Under the pieces are notes generated by a model, which searched no databases, was not told where the DNA came from, and saw only the letters and a list, made by a program, of their open reading frames with translations. A stretch of DNA of 64,000 nt from Streptomyces sp. NBC_01497 (GTDB lineage Bacteria > Actinomycetota > Actinomycetes > Streptomycetales > Streptomycetaceae). The DNA lies in NCBI RefSeq assembly GCF_036250695.1, contig NZ_CP109427.1, positions 1,488,001 to 1,552,000 on the forward strand. Reading direction: 5' to 3'. Positions 5,936 to 18,049 of the stretch are shown one piece after another. Every line of letters starts with the position of its first letter. Within the stretch, counting starts at the first letter, position 1. Made by a program: the position numbers and the translations under genes.

Positions 5936-7228
5936 CTACGCCTCCTGCGCGGCCTCCCGCTCCGCGTCGTCCTGGGCGCCGGCCACCGGCGGTGTCCGCA
6001 GCGGCGACCTGTACGCGAGTCCCGCGATGACGAGCCTGAGCAGCGCGCCCACGGCGATGACCACGTAGAAGTCGTGGAAGCTCGTCTCCAGCAGGCCGGC
6101 CACCACGGCGGAGACGGGGATCGAGGCGAACGCGAGCATCCGGGTGGTGGCCACGACCCGGCCGAGCATGGCGTCGGGAACCACCTGCTGGCGCAGGGTG
6201 AACCAGGCGACCGGGTTGATCGACCCCAGTACGTACATCAGTCCCCAGACCACGGCGATGCCGACCGGACTGCGCACCGGGACCAGCAGCAGAGTGACGA
6301 GTCCCGCCACGGACGTGGTGCCGATGAGGACACGGCCCGGGGCGAACCTGCGGATGATCGGCCCGGCCAGGGCCGCGCCGAGGACCGCCCCCACGCCCTG
6401 CGCCGCCAGCACGGCGCCCACGACGTCGGGCGACAGCTTACGGTAACTGGTCAGGTAGAAGACGAAGTTGGCCTGGATGAGCCAGATCGCGAAGTTCGTT
6501 CCCGTGAACATCAGCGAACCCGCCATCATGAGCCGGTTCGTACGGAAGATGTAGCGGAGCGCCTCGGTGATCTCACCCCCGAAGGAGGCGGCCCGGCGTA
6601 CCGCCGCGCGGGCCACCGGGGCGCCGCCACGGATCGTGGTGATGGCGAGCGCGGACACCAGGAAGGACGCGGCGTTCACATAGACCGTGGTCTGGAAGCC
6701 GAAGAGGCCCACCAGGCCACCGGCCACCACGGGGCCGAGCATGCTCATGATGTTGTCGCCCGACTGCATCCAGCCGTTGGCCTGGCCGAGGCGGCTCTCC
6801 GGCACGATCTGCGGCAGGAACCCCTGGAACGCCGGGTGGTAGACGGGTTCCACACAGGCCAGCAGGAAGGCCACCAGATAAATCGGCCACAGGGTGTGCA
6901 CCCCGGCGGTGACCACCAGCGCGAGGCAGAGCGCGATGACACAGGCCGTCATGTCGCCGGTGACGAGCAGCCGCCGCCGGTCCCACCGGTCCGCGAAGAC
7001 CCCGCCGGGCAGGGACAGCAGCAGGAACGGTACGTACTCGATGGCGTAGAGCCCGCTGGTGCTCAGTGCGGAGCCGGTCAGGTGCAGCACCAGCAGGGGC
7101 AGTGCCAGCCGGTAGACCCAGTTCCCGAGCGACGAGGCGAGGAACGCCGTCAGCAGCACGTAGTAACGGGCGCCCAGTCCGGGAAGCCGGGCCTCGACGG
7201 GACGGCCCGTGCCGTCCGGCGCACTCAT
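5936..7228 (-). CDS. MFS exporter of the microcin C-like peptide operon
   Basis: 430-residue major facilitator with about 12 hydrophobic segments. The loop-2/3 motif region 'PGGVFADRWDRRRLLVTGD' is the MFS_3/EntS-like variant of motif A. It faces the same way as, and lies downstream of, the ThiF-like gene and short peptide gene. MccC, the exporter of microcin C, is also an MFS protein, so export of the modified peptide (and self-immunity) is the most economical role; this is inference. ATG 7228 was chosen because the frame upstream is arginine/proline noise and the first membrane helix begins about 25 residues in. A 322-bp gap with a hairpin separates it from the ThiF gene. Confidence 0.8.
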   Translation of the reverse strand: MSAPDGTGRPVEARLPGLGARYYVLLTAFLASSLGNWVYRLALPLLVLHLTGSALSTSGLYAIEYVPFLLLSLPGGVFADRWDRRRLLVTGDMTACVIALCLALVVTAGVHTLWPIYLVAFLLACVEPVYHPAFQGFLPQIVPESRLGQANGWMQSGDNIMSMLGPVVAGGLVGLFGFQTTVYVNAASFLVSALAITTIRGGAPVARAAVRRAASFGGEITEALRYIFRTNRLMMAGSLMFTGTNFAIWLIQANFVFYLTSYRKLSPDVVGAVLAAQGVGAVLGAALAGPIIRRFAPGRVLIGTTSVAGLVTLLLVPVRSPVGIAVVWGLMYVLGSINPVAWFTLRQQVVPDAMLGRVVATTRMLAFASIPVSAVVAGLLETSFHDFYVVIAVGALLRLVIAGLAYRSPLRTPPVAGAQDDAEREAAQEA

Positions 7229-7375
7229 GACCGGTCCTCGGCGGCCGGGTGCGCGGGCCGGAGCACGCGGGCCGCGCGGGTCACGCGGCCCGCGCGGGGA
7301 GTGGGGTACAGGAGCAGGGGCACGATCAGTCGTTTCGTCGGGCGGTCGTCGAAAGGGCGTTCGCGGCAAGGGTGT

Positions 7376-7413
7376 CCGGCGGGCCGCCGTCCAGCAGGTC
7401 GGCGGCCCGCCGG
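7376..7413 (-). terminator. Perfect 14-bp hairpin between ThiF-like and MFS genes
   Basis: Arms 7376-7389 and 7400-7413 are perfectly complementary with a 10-nt loop. It lies in the otherwise empty 322-bp gap (7229-7550). No U-tract follows, as is usual in actinomycete terminators. It may reduce read-through into the exporter gene or protect the upstream mRNA. Confidence 0.6.
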
Positions 7414-7550
7414 AGCTGCCTGCGCCGGGATCGGGGGTCGGGCGCGGGTGTCGCAGGGTCGGCTGTCCGGGTGGCGGGTGACGGGACGGCGGCCGTGCCG
7501 AAGGGGCGCGGCCGGGCCCCGGGGTCCGCCTCGGCGGGCCGCCGACCGCG

Positions 7551-8699
7551 TCAGTGCGCCGCGAGGAGGTCCGTCGCCGACGGCTTTGTATCACGCTCCG
7601 GACCGCAGACCGGACAGTCGTCGAGCCGCTTCCAGCTCTCGCTCTCACCCATCGCGTAGTCCGTGAAGCGCAGCTCCATCAGGCGGCCCGCGGCGACCGG
7701 CGGGGCGATGCCCGTCACCAGCCGGGTCAGTTCGCCGATCAGGAAACCCGTCGTCATGGTGACAAGCGGGCAGAACGCGGCGTTGTCGCCGCCGATGCGC
7801 CGCTCCCGCTTCTCCTCCAACAGCTCCCGCGACACGTCGTCGCTAGCGAAGACCTGGCGCCGCCAGCACTCCACGCAGCCGGTGGTGCCGGGGATCATGG
7901 TGAAGTAGACGGCGCGCTGGGTCTCCAGGCCACCGGTGACCAGCGGCACCCCGCGGGCCACACAGGCTTCGTTGACCCAGTTGGCGATCTCCATCTTGGG
8001 CCGGTCGGCCACCGAGATCACCACATCGGCGCCGTCGATCACCCCGAGGACGTCCTCGGTCGAGGTGATCCTCAGGTTCACGGCCTCGATGTCGATGTGC
8101 GGGTTGAACCGGCGGACGCGTTCGACGGCGAGCCCGAGTTTCTCCTCGCCCACGTCGCCCTCGCGGTAGAGGATCTGCCGGTTGAGGTTGGACAGTTCGA
8201 CCCGGTCGAACTCGACGGCGGTCACATGGCCGATGCCCATCGCCGCCATGTCGAGCAGCACGTGGGAGCCGAGACCGCCGAGGCCGAGCAGGGTGACCCG
8301 GCAGTCGCGCAGTTTGCGCTGCTGCTCGAACTTGTTGTCGGCCAGTCGCGCGAACGAGCCGAAGAAGTTGATGTTCCTTTCCCAGCGCCGGAGTTCGTGT
8401 TCCTCCAGGATGCCGTCCGGCGACGCGTCGGCGTCGAGCAGGAAGCCCGCCTGGTCGAACTGGTCCACCGCGCCCGCGATCTCGTCGAGAGTCACTTCGG
8501 GGAAGGACGTCCCCAGGTCGGCGTGGACCTGCTCCAGGGTCCTGCTGCCGTCGAGCAGTTCGAGGAGGGCACGGATCGCGCCCGTGGGATCGGTGATCTC
8601 GGTGACATCGCCGAAGCCGCCGATGAGGATCTGTTCGCCGCTGCCGAAGACCGGCGCGGTGTGTTTCAGCTGCGGTCGCGTGCGCGCGCTCACGGGCAT
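7551..8699 (-). CDS. MccB/PaaA-like ThiF-family peptide adenylyltransferase
   Basis: 382 residues. Residues 1 to about 90 form a winged-helix-like region resembling RiPP recognition elements ('GGFGDVTEITDPTGAIRALL', then 'VTLDEIAGAVDQFDQAGFLL'). An E1-like domain follows: GLGGLGSH (139-146) nucleotide loop, Asp165 and Arg174 in 'EFDRVELSNLNRQ', Lys187, and two CxxC pairs (Cys275/278 and Cys362/365) for structural zinc. Order and several local motifs match E. coli MccB as I recall it: RWERNI/RYSRNF, NWVNEACV/NWVNKYCV, IPGTTGCVEC/VPGKTGCYEC. MccB adenylates the C-terminus of a peptide. GGAGG precedes ATG 8699. A PaaA-like cyclase reaction is the main alternative. Confidence 0.85.
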   Translation of the reverse strand: MPVSARTRPQLKHTAPVFGSGEQILIGGFGDVTEITDPTGAIRALLELLDGSRTLEQVHADLGTSFPEVTLDEIAGAVDQFDQAGFLLDADASPDGILEEHELRRWERNINFFGSFARLADNKFEQQRKLRDCRVTLLGLGGLGSHVLLDMAAMGIGHVTAVEFDRVELSNLNRQILYREGDVGEEKLGLAVERVRRFNPHIDIEAVNLRITSTEDVLGVIDGADVVISVADRPKMEIANWVNEACVARGVPLVTGGLETQRAVYFTMIPGTTGCVECWRRQVFASDDVSRELLEEKRERRIGGDNAAFCPLVTMTTGFLIGELTRLVTGIAPPVAAGRLMELRFTDYAMGESESWKRLDDCPVCGPERDTKPSATDLLAAH

Positions 8700-8727
8700 G
8701 GGCCATCCTCCGCGATACTGGGTGGTG

Positions 8728-8797
8728 GGCGGTTCGCCTGCGAGGCGAACCGCCTTACGGACCCGCTGGTGGGCGATTGCGGCGCCCACCAGCGGGT
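8728..8797 (-). terminator. Two adjacent perfect hairpins between peptide gene and ThiF-like gene
   Basis: In transcript order: a 15-bp perfect stem (arms 8797-8783 and 8775-8761, 7-nt loop), then 6 nt later an 11-bp perfect stem (arms 8754-8744 and 8738-8728, 5-nt loop). They fill most of the 140-bp gap after the 19-codon peptide stop. Such an element would let the short peptide mRNA accumulate over the enzyme mRNA, as reported for the mccA-mccB terminator in microcin C. The 8766-8779 segment also pairs perfectly with a leader segment at 9303-9316. Confidence 0.75.
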
Positions 8798-8839
8798 TAC
8801 CGCGTCCCGGGTACGGCCTCAGCGGCCCCCGGGCCGGGG

Positions 8840-8899
8840 TCAGCCCTCCTGCGAGCTGCCGGCGATGCTCGTCTTGCGCGTCGTCATGTCGATGTTCAC
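8840..8899 (-). CDS. Candidate 19-residue precursor peptide of the ThiF/MFS operon
   Basis: Reads VNIDMTTRKTSIAGSSQEG then TGA. The GTG at 8899 follows an AAGGGGGGTGA stretch at good spacing; an in-frame GTG at 8908 is too close to that site. It lies just upstream, same strand, of a peptide-adenylating ThiF-like gene, and two strong hairpins follow its stop. The short length, position and hairpins mimic mccA of microcin C. It differs in ending in Gly rather than the Asn found in characterised MccA peptides. A C-terminal glycine is the classical substrate end for E1-like adenylation (ThiS, MoaD, ubiquitin). Translation and modification are inferred. Confidence 0.6.
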   Translation of the reverse strand: MNIDMTTRKTSIAGSSQEG

Positions 8900-9301
8900 T
8901 GCGGTCACCCCCCTTCTATCTGGCAGGAACGGGATACCCGCCACCCGGTGAGGGCGACAGGAGCTGTGGGTTCCCCGGCCGTGGCCGGATCGGCGGCGGG
9001 CGGGACGCCGTGGGCCTTCGACGCCGGTGACTCCCTCGCGTGGGAGCGCCGGTGTGTCCTGGCTGCGTCCCGGCGGGCCCGTGTCCGGCGCACCGCGCCG
9101 AAGGCGGTGTGCGTACCGGGTGGGTTAGGGCCGGACGGGTCCTCGCGAGCCGCTTCGGTCTCGTGCCTTCGCGGGAGCCGGGAAGCGTCCCGGACCGCAA
9201 GAATTCCCCGCATCGCCGTACGCCCCTCCCCCTGGGTCGCGCCGCCTTCCGGGCTGAACTCCGGCCGGATGGGGGGAACTTAACGGGATCCGGTGGGTCG
9301 G

Positions 9302-9331
9302 TCAATCGCCCACCAGGGGAGGAAAGTTCAT
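9302..9331 (-). CDS. Possible 9-codon leader ORF of the peptide operon
   Basis: Minus-strand ATG at 9331 reads MNFPPLVGD then TGA. GAAGG lies 8 nt upstream, and a candidate promoter lies just before that. The codons for LVGD cover 9303-9316, which is exactly complementary in RNA to one hairpin arm 520 nt downstream. It could be an attenuation leader peptide or, less likely, an alternative precursor. No conservation evidence is available. Confidence 0.3.
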   Translation of the reverse strand: MNFPPLVGD

Positions 9332-9346
9332 GGTCAGTGCCTTCAG

Positions 9347-9375
9347 GCCATAGCAGATTTAAGGACTATTGTCCG
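9347..9375 (-). promoter_or_regulatory. Candidate promoter for the peptide operon
   Basis: On the minus strand CGGACA (9375-9370) and TATGGC (9352-9347) are 17 bp apart, with TG one base before the -10 (extended type). It lies in a local AT-rich patch between the peptide operon and hyi. It would give a leader of about 440 nt before the 19-codon ORF. A promoter nearer 8910-8990 cannot be excluded. Confidence 0.4.
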
Positions 9376-12003: not shown

Positions 12004-14865
12004 TTACGCCACCTGGCGGCGTACGAGTTCGCTCAGCCGACCCGACGGGTCGGCCAACAGCGCTGCCGGTGTGCCCTGTTCGACCACCCGGCCGCCGTCC
12101 ATCACGATCACGCGGTCGGCGTCCAGGACGGTGCTCAGCCGGTGCGCGATCACCAGTCTGCTGGCCCTCAGCCGCCGGGTGCTCTCCATGACGACGCGCT
12201 GCGTCTCGTTGTCGAGGGCGCTGGTCGCCTCGTCGAAGAACAGGATGCGCGGGCGCCGTACGAGCGCCTGGGCGATCATCAGCCGCTGGCGCTGGCCGCC
12301 GGAGACCGCGCCGCCGCCCGCGATCATCGTGTGCAGGCCCATGGGCATGCGCCGGATGTCCTCGGCGAGTCCGGCGAGTTCCGCGGCCTCCCAGACCTCC
12401 TCCTGGGTGAACGCCTCGGCGCCCCGGATGCAGTCCAGGATCGAGCCGGTCAGCGGCTGCGCGTTCTGCAGCACGACACCGCACTGACGGCGTACGGCGC
12501 TGAGGTCGAGGGCCGAGAGGTCCTGGCCGTCGTAGAGCACACTGCCGGAGACGGGCCGCTCGAAGCCGATCAGCAGCCGCAGCAGCGTGGACTTGCCGCA
12601 GCCGCTCGGCCCGACGACCGCGACGAACTCGCCCTCGGCGACCTCGACCGTCACGTCGTCGAGGACCAGCGGACCCTCGTCGCCGTACCGGAAGGTCACC
12701 CCCCGCGCGGCGAACGCCCCCGTCAGGGCCCCCGGAGCGGCGCTGCCGCCCCGTACCTCCGGCTCGCCGCGCAGCACCGGCCGTACCTGTTCGTACATCG
12801 GCAGCGCGGAGACCGCCGACACCAGGGCGCCGGTGAGCTGGGTGACCGAGGTCAGCAGCATCGTCAGGGACGTGTTGAAGGTGAGGAAGGACGCGGACGA
12901 CAGGGTGCCGCGCGCGGGCCCCGCGAGGGCCATGAACATCAACAGGGTGCACAGCGGCAGGTACACCGCGTCGACCACGGTGTTGACGTTCTTGATGTGC
13001 CCGGCCCGCTGCTGCATCTTCCGGGACTTCGCGAACTGACGGGCCCAGGCGGCGTATGCGAACGGCTCGGCCGCCGCGACGCGCAGCTTGGGCAGGCCCC
13101 GCAGGGTCTGGAAGGCCTGGTTGTTGAGCTTGTTGCCGAGCTTGACCAGCCGCCGCTGCCAGCGCACCTGCCAGAGCCCGATCGCGAGGAACACGGCGGT
13201 GACGACGGCGAGCATGCCGAGACCGGCGAGCGCGAGGGGCACGCTGTAGAAGAGGAGCAGCCCGAGGTTCATCACGCCGACGGTGGTGGACTGGAGCACG
13301 ACCGGGGCGATACCCGACAGCACCCGCCGTACGGAGCTGACCCCCATGGCGGCACTGGCGAGTTCACCGGTGGAGCGTTCACCGAAGAAGGCGGTGGGAA
13401 GCCGCAGCAGCCTGTCCCACACGGCCGGCTGGAGGGTGGCCTCCATGCGTCCCTCGATGCGCAGCATGGTGAGGTTCTGGAGCAACCCGAAGGCGGCCGA
13501 CACCGCGCCCGCCACCATCACGGCGATCGCGACCTGAACGATGAGGCCGGTCCGGGCCTCGGGGACGTACTCCCCGAGGACCTTGCCGGTGGCGATGGGC
13601 ACGAGCGCGCCGAGCGCGACGGTGACCAGTCCCGCGATGACGAGGGAGCGCAGGTCGGCGCGGGCGCCGCGCAGGCTGAAGCGCAGTAGCCGCAGCGGGT
13701 TCAACGGGCGTTCGGGCAGCGGCCGGTAGAACATCGCCGCGCTCGGCTCGAAGTCCTCGGAGTTCTCGGCGCTGACGCGGGCGCGCGATCCGCTGAGCGG
13801 GTTGACCGCCTCGTACCGTCCGCGCCGCCACATCAGCGCGACGGGTGCCCCCGACCGGGCCCTGCTGCCCACGAGCGGCCCCACGTCGGTGCGCCACCAC
13901 TCGCCGGCGAGGCGGACCGGCCGGGTGCGGACCCGGGCGTGTGCCGCGATCCGTTCGACGGGGCCGAGCCTGGTGCCCGCGCTCCCGGTGTCGCGGGGCG
14001 GGTCGCCGAGGGCGATGCCGCTGCCGGCCGCGACATGGCGGCACACCGCGAAGAACGCGTCGTCGCCGCTCCCGTGCGCGCCGCGTTCCCGGTCCCGGCG
14101 GCCCCGGCGGTCGATGGAGGCGACGAGGGCCCGCTCGGCGCTCTCCTGTTCCCGCTCGCCCGCTCTGATGCCGGCGGCGGTGCGGTCCTCGTGGGCCTGT
14201 TCACGGCCGGCGATCCACCGGTCGACGGCGGCGAGCAGCCGGTACTGCTGGGCGATCATGCCCTGCCACATCGTGGCGTCGACGAGCAGGTCCCCCGCGA
14301 AGTCCGCGCTGTAGGCGGCGCCGGGCTCGACGCTGCCCGCGGGGACGGGCATCCACAGGATGTCGTCGTCGGCGACGGCGTCGGCCGTCGGGTCGTCCCC
14401 GGCGAGCCGGCCGTCCAGCGGCGCCTCGAACAGCGCGCCGAGCCCGCGGCCGATGCCGAGGGCGAAGGCGTTCTCCAGCGGCGAGGGTTCCTGAGGCGGC
14501 TGGTGCGGGTAGGGGCGGGTGAGTTCGCGCAGCGGGACGCGGCGCAGCACGCAGCCCGGCCCCGGCCTGCCGAGCAAGGTGTGGCGGGGGCCCTCGACGG
14601 GCCCGAGCAGCAACGTGCCGGCCTCCAGGCGGCCGAGGAAGTGCCAAGGGCCGCCGCCCGTCGTGTCGACCGCGAACAGGTCGAGGACGCCCGCGGCCAC
14701 CAGCCACAGGACGAGTGGCCCTTCGAGGCCGACGGCCGTCCCGCCGGCCTCGGCACCGGTGGCGCCCCCGGCGGCGGTGTCCACCGGGGCCCCGATGCCC
14801 TCGAAGGCCGTGGTCACGGTGTCGTGTTCGCTCTGCCCCGGGCCCGTCCCGGTCGCCGTCGCCAC
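12004..14865 (-). CDS. NHLP bacteriocin-export ABC transporter, permease/ATPase subunit
   Basis: 953 residues. An N-terminal soluble region of about 380 residues precedes the membrane domain (about 390-690) and an ABC ATPase. Walker A is 'VGPSGCGKSTLLRLL', signature 'VSGGQRQRL', Walker B 'ILFFDEATSALD'. The architecture matches the second ABC component of NHLP/NHLM-type peptide export systems, which lacks the C39 peptidase. GTG 14865 starts 1 bp after the stop of the C39-ABC gene, so translation is coupled. It should pair with that gene product and the HlyD protein to secrete the peptide encoded at 18050-18259. It is last in the operon. Confidence 0.9.
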   Translation of the reverse strand: MATATGTGPGQSEHDTVTTAFEGIGAPVDTAAGGATGAEAGGTAVGLEGPLVLWLVAAGVLDLFAVDTTGGGPWHFLGRLEAGTLLLGPVEGPRHTLLGRPGPGCVLRRVPLRELTRPYPHQPPQEPSPLENAFALGIGRGLGALFEAPLDGRLAGDDPTADAVADDDILWMPVPAGSVEPGAAYSADFAGDLLVDATMWQGMIAQQYRLLAAVDRWIAGREQAHEDRTAAGIRAGEREQESAERALVASIDRRGRRDRERGAHGSGDDAFFAVCRHVAAGSGIALGDPPRDTGSAGTRLGPVERIAAHARVRTRPVRLAGEWWRTDVGPLVGSRARSGAPVALMWRRGRYEAVNPLSGSRARVSAENSEDFEPSAAMFYRPLPERPLNPLRLLRFSLRGARADLRSLVIAGLVTVALGALVPIATGKVLGEYVPEARTGLIVQVAIAVMVAGAVSAAFGLLQNLTMLRIEGRMEATLQPAVWDRLLRLPTAFFGERSTGELASAAMGVSSVRRVLSGIAPVVLQSTTVGVMNLGLLLFYSVPLALAGLGMLAVVTAVFLAIGLWQVRWQRRLVKLGNKLNNQAFQTLRGLPKLRVAAAEPFAYAAWARQFAKSRKMQQRAGHIKNVNTVVDAVYLPLCTLLMFMALAGPARGTLSSASFLTFNTSLTMLLTSVTQLTGALVSAVSALPMYEQVRPVLRGEPEVRGGSAAPGALTGAFAARGVTFRYGDEGPLVLDDVTVEVAEGEFVAVVGPSGCGKSTLLRLLIGFERPVSGSVLYDGQDLSALDLSAVRRQCGVVLQNAQPLTGSILDCIRGAEAFTQEEVWEAAELAGLAEDIRRMPMGLHTMIAGGGAVSGGQRQRLMIAQALVRRPRILFFDEATSALDNETQRVVMESTRRLRASRLVIAHRLSTVLDADRVIVMDGGRVVEQGTPAALLADPSGRLSELVRRQVA

Positions 14866-14866
14866 G

Positions 14867-17134
14867 TCAGTGCTCCTTGACCAGGGCCGCGTACGCGCCG
14901 CCGGCCGCCACCAGTTCGCCGTGCCGGCCGCGTTCGACGACGGTGCCGTGATCGAGGACGACGATCTCGTCGCTGTCCCGTACGGTGCTGAGCCGGTGCG
15001 CGATCACCACACAGGCGCAGCCGCGCCGCCGCAGGTTGTCCATGATGACGCGTTCGGTCTCGGCGTCCAGCGCGCTCGTGACCTCGTCGAGTACGAGGAC
15101 ACTGGGCCCCCGCACGAGTGCCCGCGCGATCTCCAGGCGCTGCCGCTGGCCGCCTGAGAAGTTGCGGCCGTCCTGCTCCACCCGGGAGTGGATGCCGTCG
15201 GGGCGGCGCGCGATCACGTCGTCGTACAGGGCAGCGTCGCGCAGGGCCGCCACCACCGCCTCGTCGGGGATCGAGGGGTCCCACAGGGCGACGTTGTCCC
15301 GTACGGTCCCCTCGAAGAGGAAGACGTCCTGGTCCACGAAGGACACGGAGGCGGCGAGCGCACCGCGCGGGATGTCCTCGATGCGGCGGCCGTCGATCGA
15401 GATGGTGCCTTCCCAGGGCCGGTACAGCCCCGAGATCAGCCGGGAGACGGTGGACTTGCCGCTGCCCGATCCGCCGACAAGGGCGACCTGCCGGCCCGGC
15501 CCGACGGTCAACGAGAACCCGCCGAGCAGCGGCGCGTCGAGCGGGCTGTATCCGAACGTCACGTCCCGCAACGCGACATGGCCGGTGAGTCGGCGGGTGC
15601 TCGGGCCCGACCCGTCCTGCGCGTAGAGCGTGTCCGCGGGGAAGTTCTCGACGTCCTTGAGGCGTGCGACGTCGGCTGCGAAGTCCTGGATGCGGCCCGC
15701 GACGCCGTTGAGCCGGGTGATGGGCGCGGTGAAGCTCGTGACGAGCGTCTGGAAGGCGACCAGCAGGCCGATGGAGATGTGTCCGTCCACGGCGCGCAGC
15801 CCGCCGATCCACAGGATCAGCGCGCTGTTGAGGGTGGCGAGGAGCGGGGCGACGACGGCGAGCACCGCGCTCGGCACACCGAGGCGCTGCTGTTCCTCCA
15901 GGGTCGCGGCGTGCTGCCCGGCCCAGCGGCGGAAGAAGCCGTCCTCGCCGCCGGTCGCCTTCAGCGTCTCGATCAGCTGGAGACCGGTGTACGAGGTGGT
16001 GGTCAGGCGGGCGCTGTCGGCGCGGAGCTTTTGGGTGTGGGTGGCGCGCAGCCGGATCACGACGCGCATGGCGACGACGTTCAGCAGGGCCACCAGCACA
16101 CCGATGACAGTGAGTTGCGGATCGTAGGTCCACAGCAGCACGGCGTACAGCAGGACCACGAGGCCGTCGACGCCCGCAGCCGAGAGGTCGCGCGCCAGGG
16201 TCTCGGCGACGGAGTCGTTGGACTGCAGGCGCTGGACGAGGTCGGCGGGGCTGCGCTGGGCGAAGAACGTGACGGGCAGCCGCATCAGGTGGCGCATGAA
16301 ACGGGCGCTGCTGAGCGTGGAGGAGATGATGCGCCCGCGCAGCAGGTTGGCCTGCTGGAGCCCGGTGAGGACGGCGGTGAGCGCGATCATCGCGGCCATC
16401 GCGGCGAACAGTGGTCCGAGCAGCGAGGTCTGCCCGCCCACCAGGAACATGTCGATGTACGTGCGGCTGAGCGCGGGCACGGCGGCGCCGGTGGCGACGA
16501 GGAGGAGCCCCGCGAGCAGCGCCGCGAACAGGGTGCCCGCGGTGCCGCGCATCCGGGTGGGCAGCGCGCGCAGCACACCGGGGCGGCGGCCGCCCGTGCT
16601 GAAGGAGCCGGTGCGTTCGAAGACGAGGGCGACGCCGGTGAAGCTGGTGTCGAAGTCCTCGGCGGGCACGAACCTGCGGCCCTTTCCCGGGTCGTTGATG
16701 TGCACGCCCCGGGTGCCGAGTCTGCGGCCCGTCCCCTCGTACACGACGTAGTGGTTGAACTCCCAGAAGAGGATCGCCGGTCCCCGCACGTCGGCGAGGG
16801 CGGCGGACTCCATTTGCATGCCCTTGGCCCCGAGGCCGTAACTGCGGGCCGCTTTGAGCAGGTTGCTGGCGCGGGAGCCGTCGCGGGAGACGCCGCAGGC
16901 GATGCGGAGCTCCTCCAGCGGGACATGGCGGCCGTGGTGGGCGAGGACCATGGCGAGGCAGGCGGCGCCGCACTCGACGGCCTCCATCTGCAGGACGGTG
17001 GGGGTACGGACCCTCCGGATCCGGCCGCCGGACGGCGCGGACGGCCGGGCCTCGGTGCGGGCAGGACCGGTGCGGTGACGGCCGTGGCCGCCGGGTGGGA
17101 GCTGCCGCTGCGGCGGTACGCGGGTGCCGCTCAT
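14867..17134 (-). CDS. NHLP bacteriocin-export ABC transporter with C39 leader peptidase
   Basis: 755 residues in order: C39 cysteine protease, six-helix membrane domain, ABC ATPase. The catalytic triad is visible: Cys55 in 'AVECGAACLAM', His128 in 'EFNHYVVY' and Asp148 in 'INDPGKG'. Walker A is 'VGGSGSGKSTVSRLI', signature 'FSGGQRQRL', Walker B 'VLVLDEVTSALD'. Such proteins cleave after a double-glycine in the leader and export the core. The substrate is very likely the peptide at 18050-18259, which carries VSGG. ATG 17134 overlaps the HlyD stop by four bases (ATGA). Confidence 0.93.
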   Translation of the reverse strand: MSGTRVPPQRQLPPGGHGRHRTGPARTEARPSAPSGGRIRRVRTPTVLQMEAVECGAACLAMVLAHHGRHVPLEELRIACGVSRDGSRASNLLKAARSYGLGAKGMQMESAALADVRGPAILFWEFNHYVVYEGTGRRLGTRGVHINDPGKGRRFVPAEDFDTSFTGVALVFERTGSFSTGGRRPGVLRALPTRMRGTAGTLFAALLAGLLLVATGAAVPALSRTYIDMFLVGGQTSLLGPLFAAMAAMIALTAVLTGLQQANLLRGRIISSTLSSARFMRHLMRLPVTFFAQRSPADLVQRLQSNDSVAETLARDLSAAGVDGLVVLLYAVLLWTYDPQLTVIGVLVALLNVVAMRVVIRLRATHTQKLRADSARLTTTSYTGLQLIETLKATGGEDGFFRRWAGQHAATLEEQQRLGVPSAVLAVVAPLLATLNSALILWIGGLRAVDGHISIGLLVAFQTLVTSFTAPITRLNGVAGRIQDFAADVARLKDVENFPADTLYAQDGSGPSTRRLTGHVALRDVTFGYSPLDAPLLGGFSLTVGPGRQVALVGGSGSGKSTVSRLISGLYRPWEGTISIDGRRIEDIPRGALAASVSFVDQDVFLFEGTVRDNVALWDPSIPDEAVVAALRDAALYDDVIARRPDGIHSRVEQDGRNFSGGQRQRLEIARALVRGPSVLVLDEVTSALDAETERVIMDNLRRRGCACVVIAHRLSTVRDSDEIVVLDHGTVVERGRHGELVAAGGAYAALVKEH

Positions 17135-17940
17135 GGCAGCAGCCACTGCGCCGGGTGCTGCCGTGCGACGCGCACGGAGCCGTCGGCCGGTGTCATCGAG
17201 GTGAGCCCGAACGGCGGTCCCGCGGGTGAGGACCAGGCATAGCCGGACCGGGTGCGGCGCGTGGTGTCCAGGGCGACGAGGACGGCGACGGGCTGCCCGT
17301 CGCGGCTGAACTGGTCGGCGAGTTGGGGGTCGCCCAGGAAGGCGGCGATCTGCCGCCGGGTCTGGGTGCTCCTGCCGACGGCCTTGACGGTGCCGTGCAG
17401 CACGCCGTAGCGCTGCTCGGGCGCGGACGCCGGGCTGAGGTCGACCGGCTGTCCCGGAACGACGGACCCGCCGCCGGAGGCCGGCATGTACAGCATCGCG
17501 AGGAGCGGGTCGTGTGCGTGGGCCGCGCGTTCGACGGTCGCGATGTCGGCGCCCGTGGTGACGACGGCGCCGATGCTCGCGGTCAGGGAGGTGACCCGGC
17601 CGGCGGCGATCGCGCGGACCGTGTCCGTGGCGCCGTGCGCGACGCGTACCCGCACGAGTGGCGCGTCCGCCTCGACGCGCTGTCCCTCCTGCGCGAGCAC
17701 GGCGGTGACTTGCCCGGCGACGGGGCTCTGGAGCACGTAACTCCCCTGTCCGTAGGTGAGGATGCCCGGGGCCGCGACAGTCGAGGTCACATAACCGGTG
17801 ACCGCCCACAGCGCGCCCGCCGCCATGGCGAGGAGGGTCACCGCGAGCGTGAGCAGGCCGCGTGGGCGGGCGAGCCGCACGGGGAGGTCGAGCTCCTCCG
17901 GCGACTGGAGTTTGGTGAGCGCCTGTTGGCGGAATTGCAC
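17131..17940 (-). CDS. NHLP system HlyD-like membrane-fusion protein
   Basis: 269 residues from GTG 17940: short cytoplasmic N-terminus 'QFRQQALTKLQSPEELDLPVRL', one membrane helix (LLTLAVTLLAMAAGALWAVTGY), then a biotinyl-lipoyl/HlyD periplasmic-type domain ('GQVTAVLAQEGQRVEADAPLVRVR'). It links the two ABC subunits across the cell envelope. An in-frame GTG at 17967 would add nine residues, but it has no ribosome site and the family usually begins at the 'QFRQQ' position. First of three overlapping export genes, 110 bp after the precursor stop. Confidence 0.88.
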   Translation of the reverse strand: MQFRQQALTKLQSPEELDLPVRLARPRGLLTLAVTLLAMAAGALWAVTGYVTSTVAAPGILTYGQGSYVLQSPVAGQVTAVLAQEGQRVEADAPLVRVRVAHGATDTVRAIAAGRVTSLTASIGAVVTTGADIATVERAAHAHDPLLAMLYMPASGGGSVVPGQPVDLSPASAPEQRYGVLHGTVKAVGRSTQTRRQIAAFLGDPQLADQFSRDGQPVAVLVALDTTRRTRSGYAWSSPAGPPFGLTSMTPADGSVRVARQHPAQWLLP

Positions 17941-18049
17941 GGCGGTCTTCCCGGTCTTCCGGCACACGGAAACGTGCCCCGGAGTCCGTAGGGGATACGG
18001 ACCCGGGACACGTGTCAGTCAGTCACAACTGGTCGATGCGACCGGTTGC

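Follow-up and report, generated by a model that had tools for sequence, protein, structure and literature searches.

The ThiF-like enzymes that act on ribosomally synthesized and post-translationally modified peptides (RiPPs) share an activation step and differ in how the resulting acyl-AMP is captured, with a phosphoramidate, the pantocin bicycle, a thiolactone, the enterofaecin imide and an indolylamide as outcomes (PMC12250964, PMC12150305). In microcin C synthesis, MccB adenylates the C-terminal carboxylate of its precursor and the side chain of the terminal Asn captures the acyl-AMP as a succinimide, leading to an N-P bond (PMC12250964, PMC13255007). On a substrate with Gly in place of this Asn, MccB continues to produce the O-AMP intermediate, and this can be intercepted by adding thiols (PMC13255007). 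Capture is by a backbone amide in the case of EnfB, giving the imide in enterofaecin (PMC12250964), and by the indole of Trp in the case of IndF (PMC12250964, PMC12150305). Here we describe a locus of this kind in a 64,000-nucleotide stretch of Streptomyces sp. NBC_01497 (contig NZ_CP109427.1, positions 1,488,001 to 1,552,000; hereafter the window, whose own numbering is used for its features). On the minus strand lie, in order of transcription, a 19-codon open reading frame (ORF), a 140-nt hairpin region and the genes for a 382-aa ThiF-family enzyme and a 430-aa protein of the major facilitator superfamily (MFS). By its gene content, namely a fusion of a RiPP recognition element (RRE) with a ThiF domain, a conserved short precursor and a transporter, the locus belongs to the ThiF-like RiPPs in the wider sense, and peptide, RRE-E1 enzyme and MFS protein are supported as one cassette. 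On the strength of sequence comparison we regard the locus as a likely RiPP operon whose enzyme is a ThiF-like adenylyltransferase and whose precursor ends in Gly.

The precursor gene (8840-8899, minus strand; 19 codons and a stop) encodes, from a GTG start, the 19-residue peptide VNIDMTTRKTSIAGSSQEG, whose C-terminal half is SIAGSSQEG and which contains neither Trp nor Glu-Glu. It is preceded by the probable ribosome-binding site AAGGGGGGTGA (8905-8915, minus strand) with five contiguous matches to the anti-Shine-Dalgarno (anti-SD) sequence; the good site claimed in a preliminary description of this DNA is thus present but of fair strength only. As a control, we made 960 shuffles of the upstream regions of 16 loci and looked for ORFs of 15-25 aa with a ribosome site: 38 shuffles had one with a site as good as that of the window, four of them Gly-ended. 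Given the GTG start, the five anti-SD matches and these 38 equally good shuffles, the window sequence alone is weak evidence for the ORF. Seven or more anti-SD matches were seen in a single shuffle and in 11 of the 16 real upstream regions, the five below this level being those of the window, S. fuscigenes, Salmonella, Pantoea and Macrococcus. The ORF is established as real by its conservation in what we call the EG group (precursors ending Glu-Gly), defined as the seven readable genomes with a ThiF about 72% identical or more: the window genome, its named close relatives S. fuscigenes and Streptomyces sp. ISL-66, NBC_01306 and 130, and two further genomes, G007 and G023. All seven have a 19-aa peptide ending Glu-Gly at the equivalent place, starting 187-201 nt before the ThiF gene, so that the 19-codon Gly-ended ORF first noticed in the window is indeed conserved next to orthologous ThiF genes; its ribosome site has five anti-SD matches in the window and S. 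fuscigenes and 7-10 in the other five. ISL-66 carries a second copy of the peptide farther upstream, and its two copies differ at three synonymous and no nonsynonymous codons. Between the window and S. fuscigenes precursors, five of the 19 codons differ nonsynonymously and three synonymously, which indicates that the N-terminal part of the peptide is not tightly kept.

The enzyme (protein P0001; 7551-8699, minus strand) matches PF00899 at 9.6e-48 and consists of an RRE-like part (about residues 7-90) and an adenylyltransferase part (about residues 98-367). It displays the motifs GLGGLG, R174, K187, D232 and two CxxC pairs (C275/C278 and C362/C365), and has all the residues aligned with R157, K170 and D214 of MccB, which we take to be the ATP-site residues of that enzyme; their counterparts in EnfB are listed in PMC12250964. 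In a structure model the N-terminus folds into three strands and three helices, as in an RRE-like domain, and aligns with the N-terminus of MccB. Pfam, alignment and model thus agree with the MccB-like order of motifs described earlier. The closest solved relatives by sequence are MccB (1.9e-29) and PaaA (4.6e-24), the match to the latter covering the RRE part, and MoeB (3.4e-23) and ThiF (3.9e-23) are a little weaker. By fold, MccB aligns from residue 7 and PaaA from residue 11, whereas MoeB and ThiF do so only from about residues 96-98, so that MccB and PaaA lead both by sequence and by full-length fold. MoeB and ThiF themselves lack an RRE part and activate small carrier proteins; with its RRE part and with equivalog scores far under the cut-offs (ThiF 122.9 bits against 275.25, MoeB 102.1 against 376.55), the enzyme was rejected as a sulfur-carrier enzyme. 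Docking proteins of the TOMM/thiopeptide ocin-ThiF type share the PF00899 fold, and the C-terminal part of the enzyme resembles TIGR03882 (23.8 bits against a cut-off of 36.9); that score and the presence of the ATP-site residues led us to reject this assignment as well. Such docking proteins accompany YcaO, and no YcaO gene is among the three flanking genes scanned, no search of the genome for YcaO having been made. An E1 catalytic cysteine is not evident. By analogy, the enzyme should work like MccB up to the acyl-AMP.

In one draw of 392 Streptomyces genomes, 35 had a match to the enzyme at 1e-30, five of them (the window included) one at least 76% identical; a second draw of 294 returned only two genomes already known, and class-wide and phylum-wide searches at 1e-60 found the window gene alone (one of 394 and one of 396 genomes). 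Another genus of the same class had two distant matches in 128 genomes, for which no precursor was found, and viral contigs had three distant partial ones. Among the matches listed in a wider comparison (the best 120 of 2156, with 8000 candidates scored) were more proteins at least 70% identical, including those of Micromonospora humida and S. avidinii. Five of 70 genomes from another genus of Streptomycetaceae (the second Streptomycetaceae genus) have a relative of about 42% identity, and in each the peptide ends Lys-Gly (four times MIKKSTKRYSSAASTAKG, once MIKKSTKRYSGAAAAVKG); these, with MIKKSTKRYSVAGGTQKG of Nonomuraea gerenzanensis, constitute the KG group. Peptide, ThiF and MFS genes likewise follow one another on plasmids of Salmonella enterica (MKFTKHATSNAKLALVG) and Pantoea piersonii (MKFTKFNASNATLAAVG), and in Macrococcus bovicus (MSLKMETIKNKAALLGGVPG); two further genes, one hypothetical and one monooxygenase-type, come after the MFS gene in Salmonella, and E. 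coli genomes contained no DNA match to the Salmonella cassette. In a tree of 38 rows, the EG, KG and Salmonella/Pantoea enzymes form one clade of 22 rows (branch support 98/97), Macrococcus lying immediately outside it. MccB stands apart from this clade beside a Pantoea protein (93/79), on a branch 3.75 long whose placement is flagged as unsure; MoeB and ThiF are placed with four further RRE-ThiF-like rows from Streptomyces (90/86), a join likewise flagged for its long branches.

Gly is the last residue, with Ser at -9 and Ala at -7, in all 16 EG, KG and Salmonella/Pantoea precursor copies read (11 distinct), and the window precursor accordingly carries the motif S(-9)-x-A(-7)-x5-G(-1). The 11 are 17, 18 or 19 aa long, with Glu, Lys or Val at -2; Ser(-9) is their only invariant side-chain nucleophile, and none has a C-terminal Asn (the positive control MRTGNAN was recovered beside MccB). 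A conserved Lys nucleophile was rejected on account of Arg at that position in S. fuscigenes, as was Glu(-2) as the activated residue, Lys or Val standing there in other groups, though a Glu-based reaction is possible within EG alone. Basic residues with Ser or Thr two places on also occur in relatives with other ends. More distant relatives end differently: -EPR in Sporosarcina, -PGT in Priestia and -WWIII in Niallia. The Sporosarcina plasmid locus (L059, 1987-6601) comprises an M3 peptidase, the 19-aa peptide ending -EPR, ThiF and an ABC transporter; in Priestia koreensis (plasmid L060, 3609-3885) three tandem copies of MKKIVVRKLATVTVPQLRPGT precede the ThiF gene; and in Niallia taxi (plasmid L061, 3805-3870) it is preceded by a WWIII-ending precursor of the enterofaecin type, such precursors having been described in Enterococcus and Streptococcus (PMC12250964). 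Of 20 Streptomyces loci retrieved, three are close orthologues; the 17 distant ones had a convincing peptide in the scan in G253 (ending -QPR, before ThiF) and G120 only, with that of G357 doubtful; none was convincing at one locus each of Macrococcus armenti, Exiguobacterium, Pantoea ananatis and a plasmid-borne Streptomyces locus. One genome (G1285; contigs C1, C3 and C4) had three matches to the enzyme alignment at 1e-60. The kindred sets in distant bacteria suggest, as judged from their genes, a wider and chemically uncharacterised kind of small modified peptide.

With microcin C7 of E. coli (MccA-MccB-MccC) the locus shares a very short precursor encoded ahead of the enzyme, an RRE-E1 enzyme whose fold and ATP-site residues agree with those of MccB, a hairpin between the peptide and enzyme genes (a terminator in mcc, a candidate for one here), and an exporter, MccC too being an MFS protein. 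It differs in its precursor, 19 aa with a Gly end against 7 aa with an Asn end, and in having no MccD/E/F-type gene among the three flanking genes scanned, no search for such immunity genes having been made in the rest of the genome. Peptidases are a weak difference, since M3 or S9 enzymes accompany the relatives of the window locus and microcin C clusters can carry MccF and AspN-like ones too; minimal mcc clusters may have A, B and C only (PMC12250964). Lacking the terminal Asn to which the N-P bond is attached, the locus is not filed in the microcin C family, and microcin C in the strict sense is rejected. The preliminary description had seen here a microcin C-like operon in which a Gly end would be a new substrate class: the cassette and its nearness to MccB and PaaA hold, assignment to microcin C is not supported, and the Gly end is real and common to the relatives, so that the proposal of a new substrate class holds. 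Enterofaecin (EnfA/EnfB) and ind (IndA/IndF) likewise have an RRE-ThiF fusion, a short precursor (EnfA, 21 aa) and activation of the C-terminal carboxylate (probable at the window locus), and ind also has a peptidase and a transporter, its own peptidase being of the M16 type whereas the relatives here have M3 or S9. The EnfB leader motif (V/I)RKA resembles the TRK(A/T) of the window group, but the enterofaecin and ind cores end in WWIVI or NWYFI and need Trp, in contrast to the Trp-less S-x-A-x5-G here. Pantocin A (PaaP/PaaA) too depends on an RRE-ThiF enzyme, the second-best solved relative by sequence; unlike the C-terminal Gly here, its core is two Glu inside a 30-aa peptide, and it employs the PaaB oxygenase, of whose type there is none among the three scanned neighbors. 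The engineered MccB/TeCH-tag bioconjugation also has MccB yield an activated C-terminus on a Gly-ended peptide, but with a designed substrate and an added thiol where the locus has a natural, conserved Gly.

Of the seven EG genomes, five carry an M3 oligopeptidase gene directly ahead of the peptide gene, recognized in sp. 130 by PF01432 (2.7e-24) and in the remaining four by tblastn (50-58% identity). In S. fuscigenes the contig with the peptide gene breaks off 147 nt upstream of it and an M3 gene lies at the edge of another contig, and given these contig edges the two genes would fit as neighbors. The KG loci have a prolyl oligopeptidase (S9) in the equivalent place (by Pfam in two of six, while the remaining four show similar ORF ends). 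That unrelated oligopeptidases of two kinds occupy this position suggests that the system includes the trimming, or clearing, of a short peptide. Upstream of the window peptide the best tblastn trace of M3 had an E of 0.015 at word size 2; we rejected it as chance, the E being weak and one piece coming from a query ORF that overlaps its own peptide gene.

These features can be assembled into a pathway. The RRE would bind the N-terminal part of the precursor (T-R-K-x-S) and thread its C-terminus into the adenylation site, where the alpha-carboxylate of Gly19 would be O-adenylated, a reaction that MccB carries out on C-terminal Asn and, experimentally, on Gly-ended MccA. That the locus makes a RiPP with its C-terminal Gly activated seems to us highly probable. 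Since Gly has no side-chain amide, the succinimide/N-P route of microcin C would be closed, and the acyl-AMP would be captured by some other nucleophile. Capture within the peptide would be the likeliest course, a view that we hold with about even confidence, either by the invariant Ser(-9) to give a 9-residue macrolactone or by a backbone amide to give an imide. As Ser(-9) is the sole invariant side-chain nucleophile in the 11 precursors, we would rank the Ser-to-Gly macrolactone first, ahead of a backbone imide and, last, an external nucleophile; the Ser(-9) ester as such is still a tentative guess. The leader would then be trimmed by an oligopeptidase, M3 or S9 being encoded beside the peptide in relatives and not at the window locus, and the product exported by the MFS pump.

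Several observations weigh against this reading. The Ser(-9)-x-Ala(-7) element may be only a docking motif, for a fixed distance from RRE to active site would fix the distance of a docking motif to the C-terminus just as well, and the recurrence, in relatives with other ends, of basic residues two places before Ser or Thr also speaks for docking. Instead of TRKA, the window reads TRKT and S. fuscigenes TRRT; the Macrococcus peptide is Gly-ended but has Ala at -9; and the Pantoea peptide, identified by eye, lacks a good ribosome site and is supported by its similarity to the Salmonella peptide. Ten of the 22 clade rows are proteins whose precursor is unread, and three of the five KG genomes (three of the four with the commonest KG peptide) are absent from the tree. 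Finally, the 9.08-Mb window genome has no M3 homologue at 1e-10, and with this, the GTG start, the weaker ribosome site and the five nonsynonymous against three synonymous differences, the window copy could be losing function. In its full form this alternative takes the copy for a decaying remnant, functional in an ancestor and disused since loss of the peptidase, for which the missing M3 gene, the start codon and the ribosome site speak; we consider it improbable in view of the intact ThiF and MFS frames, the 89-90% identity of the ThiF with that of S. fuscigenes, and the preserved hairpins, peptide end and motif, and another housekeeping oligopeptidase may serve.

The hairpin region folds at -88.3 kcal/mol (z -5.1). 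An imperfect hairpin follows the precursor stop (8806-8833), as given by the centroid fold; next come a 15-bp perfect hairpin with a 7-nt loop (8761-8797), seen in the fold and in an alignment of seven genomes, and a 12-bp perfect hairpin with a 3-nt loop immediately 5' of the ThiF gene (8728-8754), all on the minus strand. The two perfect hairpins noted earlier are therefore confirmed, with the imperfect one in addition. The core of the main hairpin, GGTGGGCG-N4-AAT-CGCCCACC, is identical in all seven genomes aligned, and each of five EG genomes searched has one match to this pattern without mismatch. There are 24 predicted pairs in the aligned region, with pair-keeping double changes at six, of which three are outer positions of the main stem; the covariation term in the alignment fold is +0.36, that is, no net support from these seven sequences, because most of the stem is invariant. 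Dissimilar hairpins stand at the equivalent place in relatives, with z of -2.7 or below for 12 of 14 loci folded, the exceptions being the one folded KG locus of the second Streptomycetaceae genus (-1.1) and Pantoea (-1.8). No T-run terminator was scored after the hairpins, a promoter scan found none, and an Rfam search returned nothing above the gathering score. With two mismatches allowed, the 9.08-Mb genome has two matches only to the pattern, the main stem and a partly degenerate second element in reverse orientation at 9292-9314 (plus strand), GGTGGGTCGGTCAATCGCCCACC. In the mcc operon, a terminator lies between mccA and the enzyme gene and ribosomes on mccA induce termination, with an excess of peptide message (PMC6495379). 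By analogy, the hairpins here probably let short peptide transcripts outnumber those of the enzyme, an extrapolation in so far as no T-run terminator was scored.

Strong conserved hairpins after the ORF, with a core kept in sequence beyond what pairing demands, would also fit a regulatory leader peptide or attenuator, the ThiF enzyme acting on something else. This is very improbable, as the conserved C-terminal half of the peptide is common to relatives with different hairpin sequences, ISL-66 has two peptide copies, the N-terminal domain of the enzyme is of a peptide-binding type, and mccA also has a terminator hairpin after it (PMC6495379). A true microcin-C-like peptide-nucleotide, in which AMP or another nucleotide stays on the peptide and the MFS protein exports a Trojan-horse inhibitor, would account for MccB being the closest solved enzyme, also in full-length fold, and for a peptide-hairpin-enzyme-exporter order like that of mcc (PMC6495379). 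We think it quite unlikely, because MccB reaches its N-P bond by way of a succinimide formed with the side chain of Asn (PMC12250964) and a published survey demanded a C-terminal Asn, which the 11 precursors lack, for the prediction of MccA (PMC6495379). The absence of an MccD/E/F-type gene from the three flanking genes scanned argues in the same direction, as does the tree, in which the enzyme is not grouped with MccB, a point that MccB's long branch weakens. Alternatively, the activated Gly could be passed to an external nucleophile (an amine to form an amide, a thiol or sulfide to form a thioester or thiocarboxylate, or a small metabolite), the peptide then behaving as an E1 substrate of very small size: the C-terminal Gly of ThiS, itself a substrate of the E1 type, undergoes adenylation (PMC12250964), added thiols intercept MccB with a Gly-ended peptide (PMC13255007) and EnfB amidates with added amines (PMC12250964). 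In a partial look at the loci with neighbors listed, however, no acceptor or sulfur-source gene was common to them (Salmonella has its two extra genes), an E1 catalytic cysteine is lacking as far as is evident, and the conserved exporter and peptidase suggest a finished, secreted peptide, so that we judge this course unlikely. For its broader form, a Gly-tailed class reaching from Streptomyces and Nonomuraea to Salmonella and Pantoea (with Macrococcus just outside the clade) of 17-20-residue E1-type substrates, their Gly adenylated and transferred to an external amine, thiol or metabolite rather than closing a ring or ending as a peptide-nucleotide, our expectation is slightly lower still; if true, this class would be a natural counterpart of the engineered MccB/Gly thioester system.

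In this group the activated residue would be Gly without exception, which offers no side chain, and no positions besides Ser(-9) and Ala(-7) are fixed; this suggests an outcome of acyl-AMP capture not yet described, and the locus offers one peptide and one enzyme for testing it. Should Gly-ended tags and external nucleophiles be accepted by the enzymes, these could serve for orthogonal labelling of protein C-termini. The published survey, with its requirement for Asn at the end (PMC6495379), would have let the Gly-ended group escape listing. Our literature search found no description of this group, with an earlier listing possible in subscription papers or in the supplement of PMC12150305 (Figure S1, further candidate clusters).

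The MFS protein (5936-7228, minus strand) belongs to PF07690 (1.2e-35), in agreement with the MccC-like exporter proposed earlier; its best NCBIfam match, TIGR00900 (H+ antiporter), scores 202.9 bits, under the cut-off of 319.6. An MFS gene lies downstream of ThiF in all 13 EG and KG loci examined, as it does in Salmonella, Macrococcus and Pantoea. Of the three flanking genes that were scanned, one codes for an FGGY kinase, one for an aldolase/short-chain dehydrogenase and one for a TIM barrel of the xylose-isomerase type; they have the look of sugar metabolism and not of members of the peptide gene set. Neither an acetyltransferase nor a carboxypeptidase, an MccD/E/F-type protein, a YcaO or an oxygenase is among them, bearing out to this extent the earlier remark that no immunity gene of the first two types is adjacent, and self-protection via export alone is possible. 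Elsewhere in the window, NHLP-type bacteriocin export genes occupy 12004-17967 (minus strand), with an ABC permease/ATPase (TIGR03797, 851.8 bits against a cut-off of 709.4) and an HlyD-like protein (TIGR03794, 156.7 against 156.2); an ORF at 14867-17965 overlaps this locus, which is probably a peptide export locus separate from the Gly-ended cassette. Two further ThiF-family genes with identical scores lie near both ends of the larger contig (8,552,978 bases), at C1:27303-27920 (minus strand) and 8525058-8525675 (plus strand), and probably sit in terminal inverted repeats.

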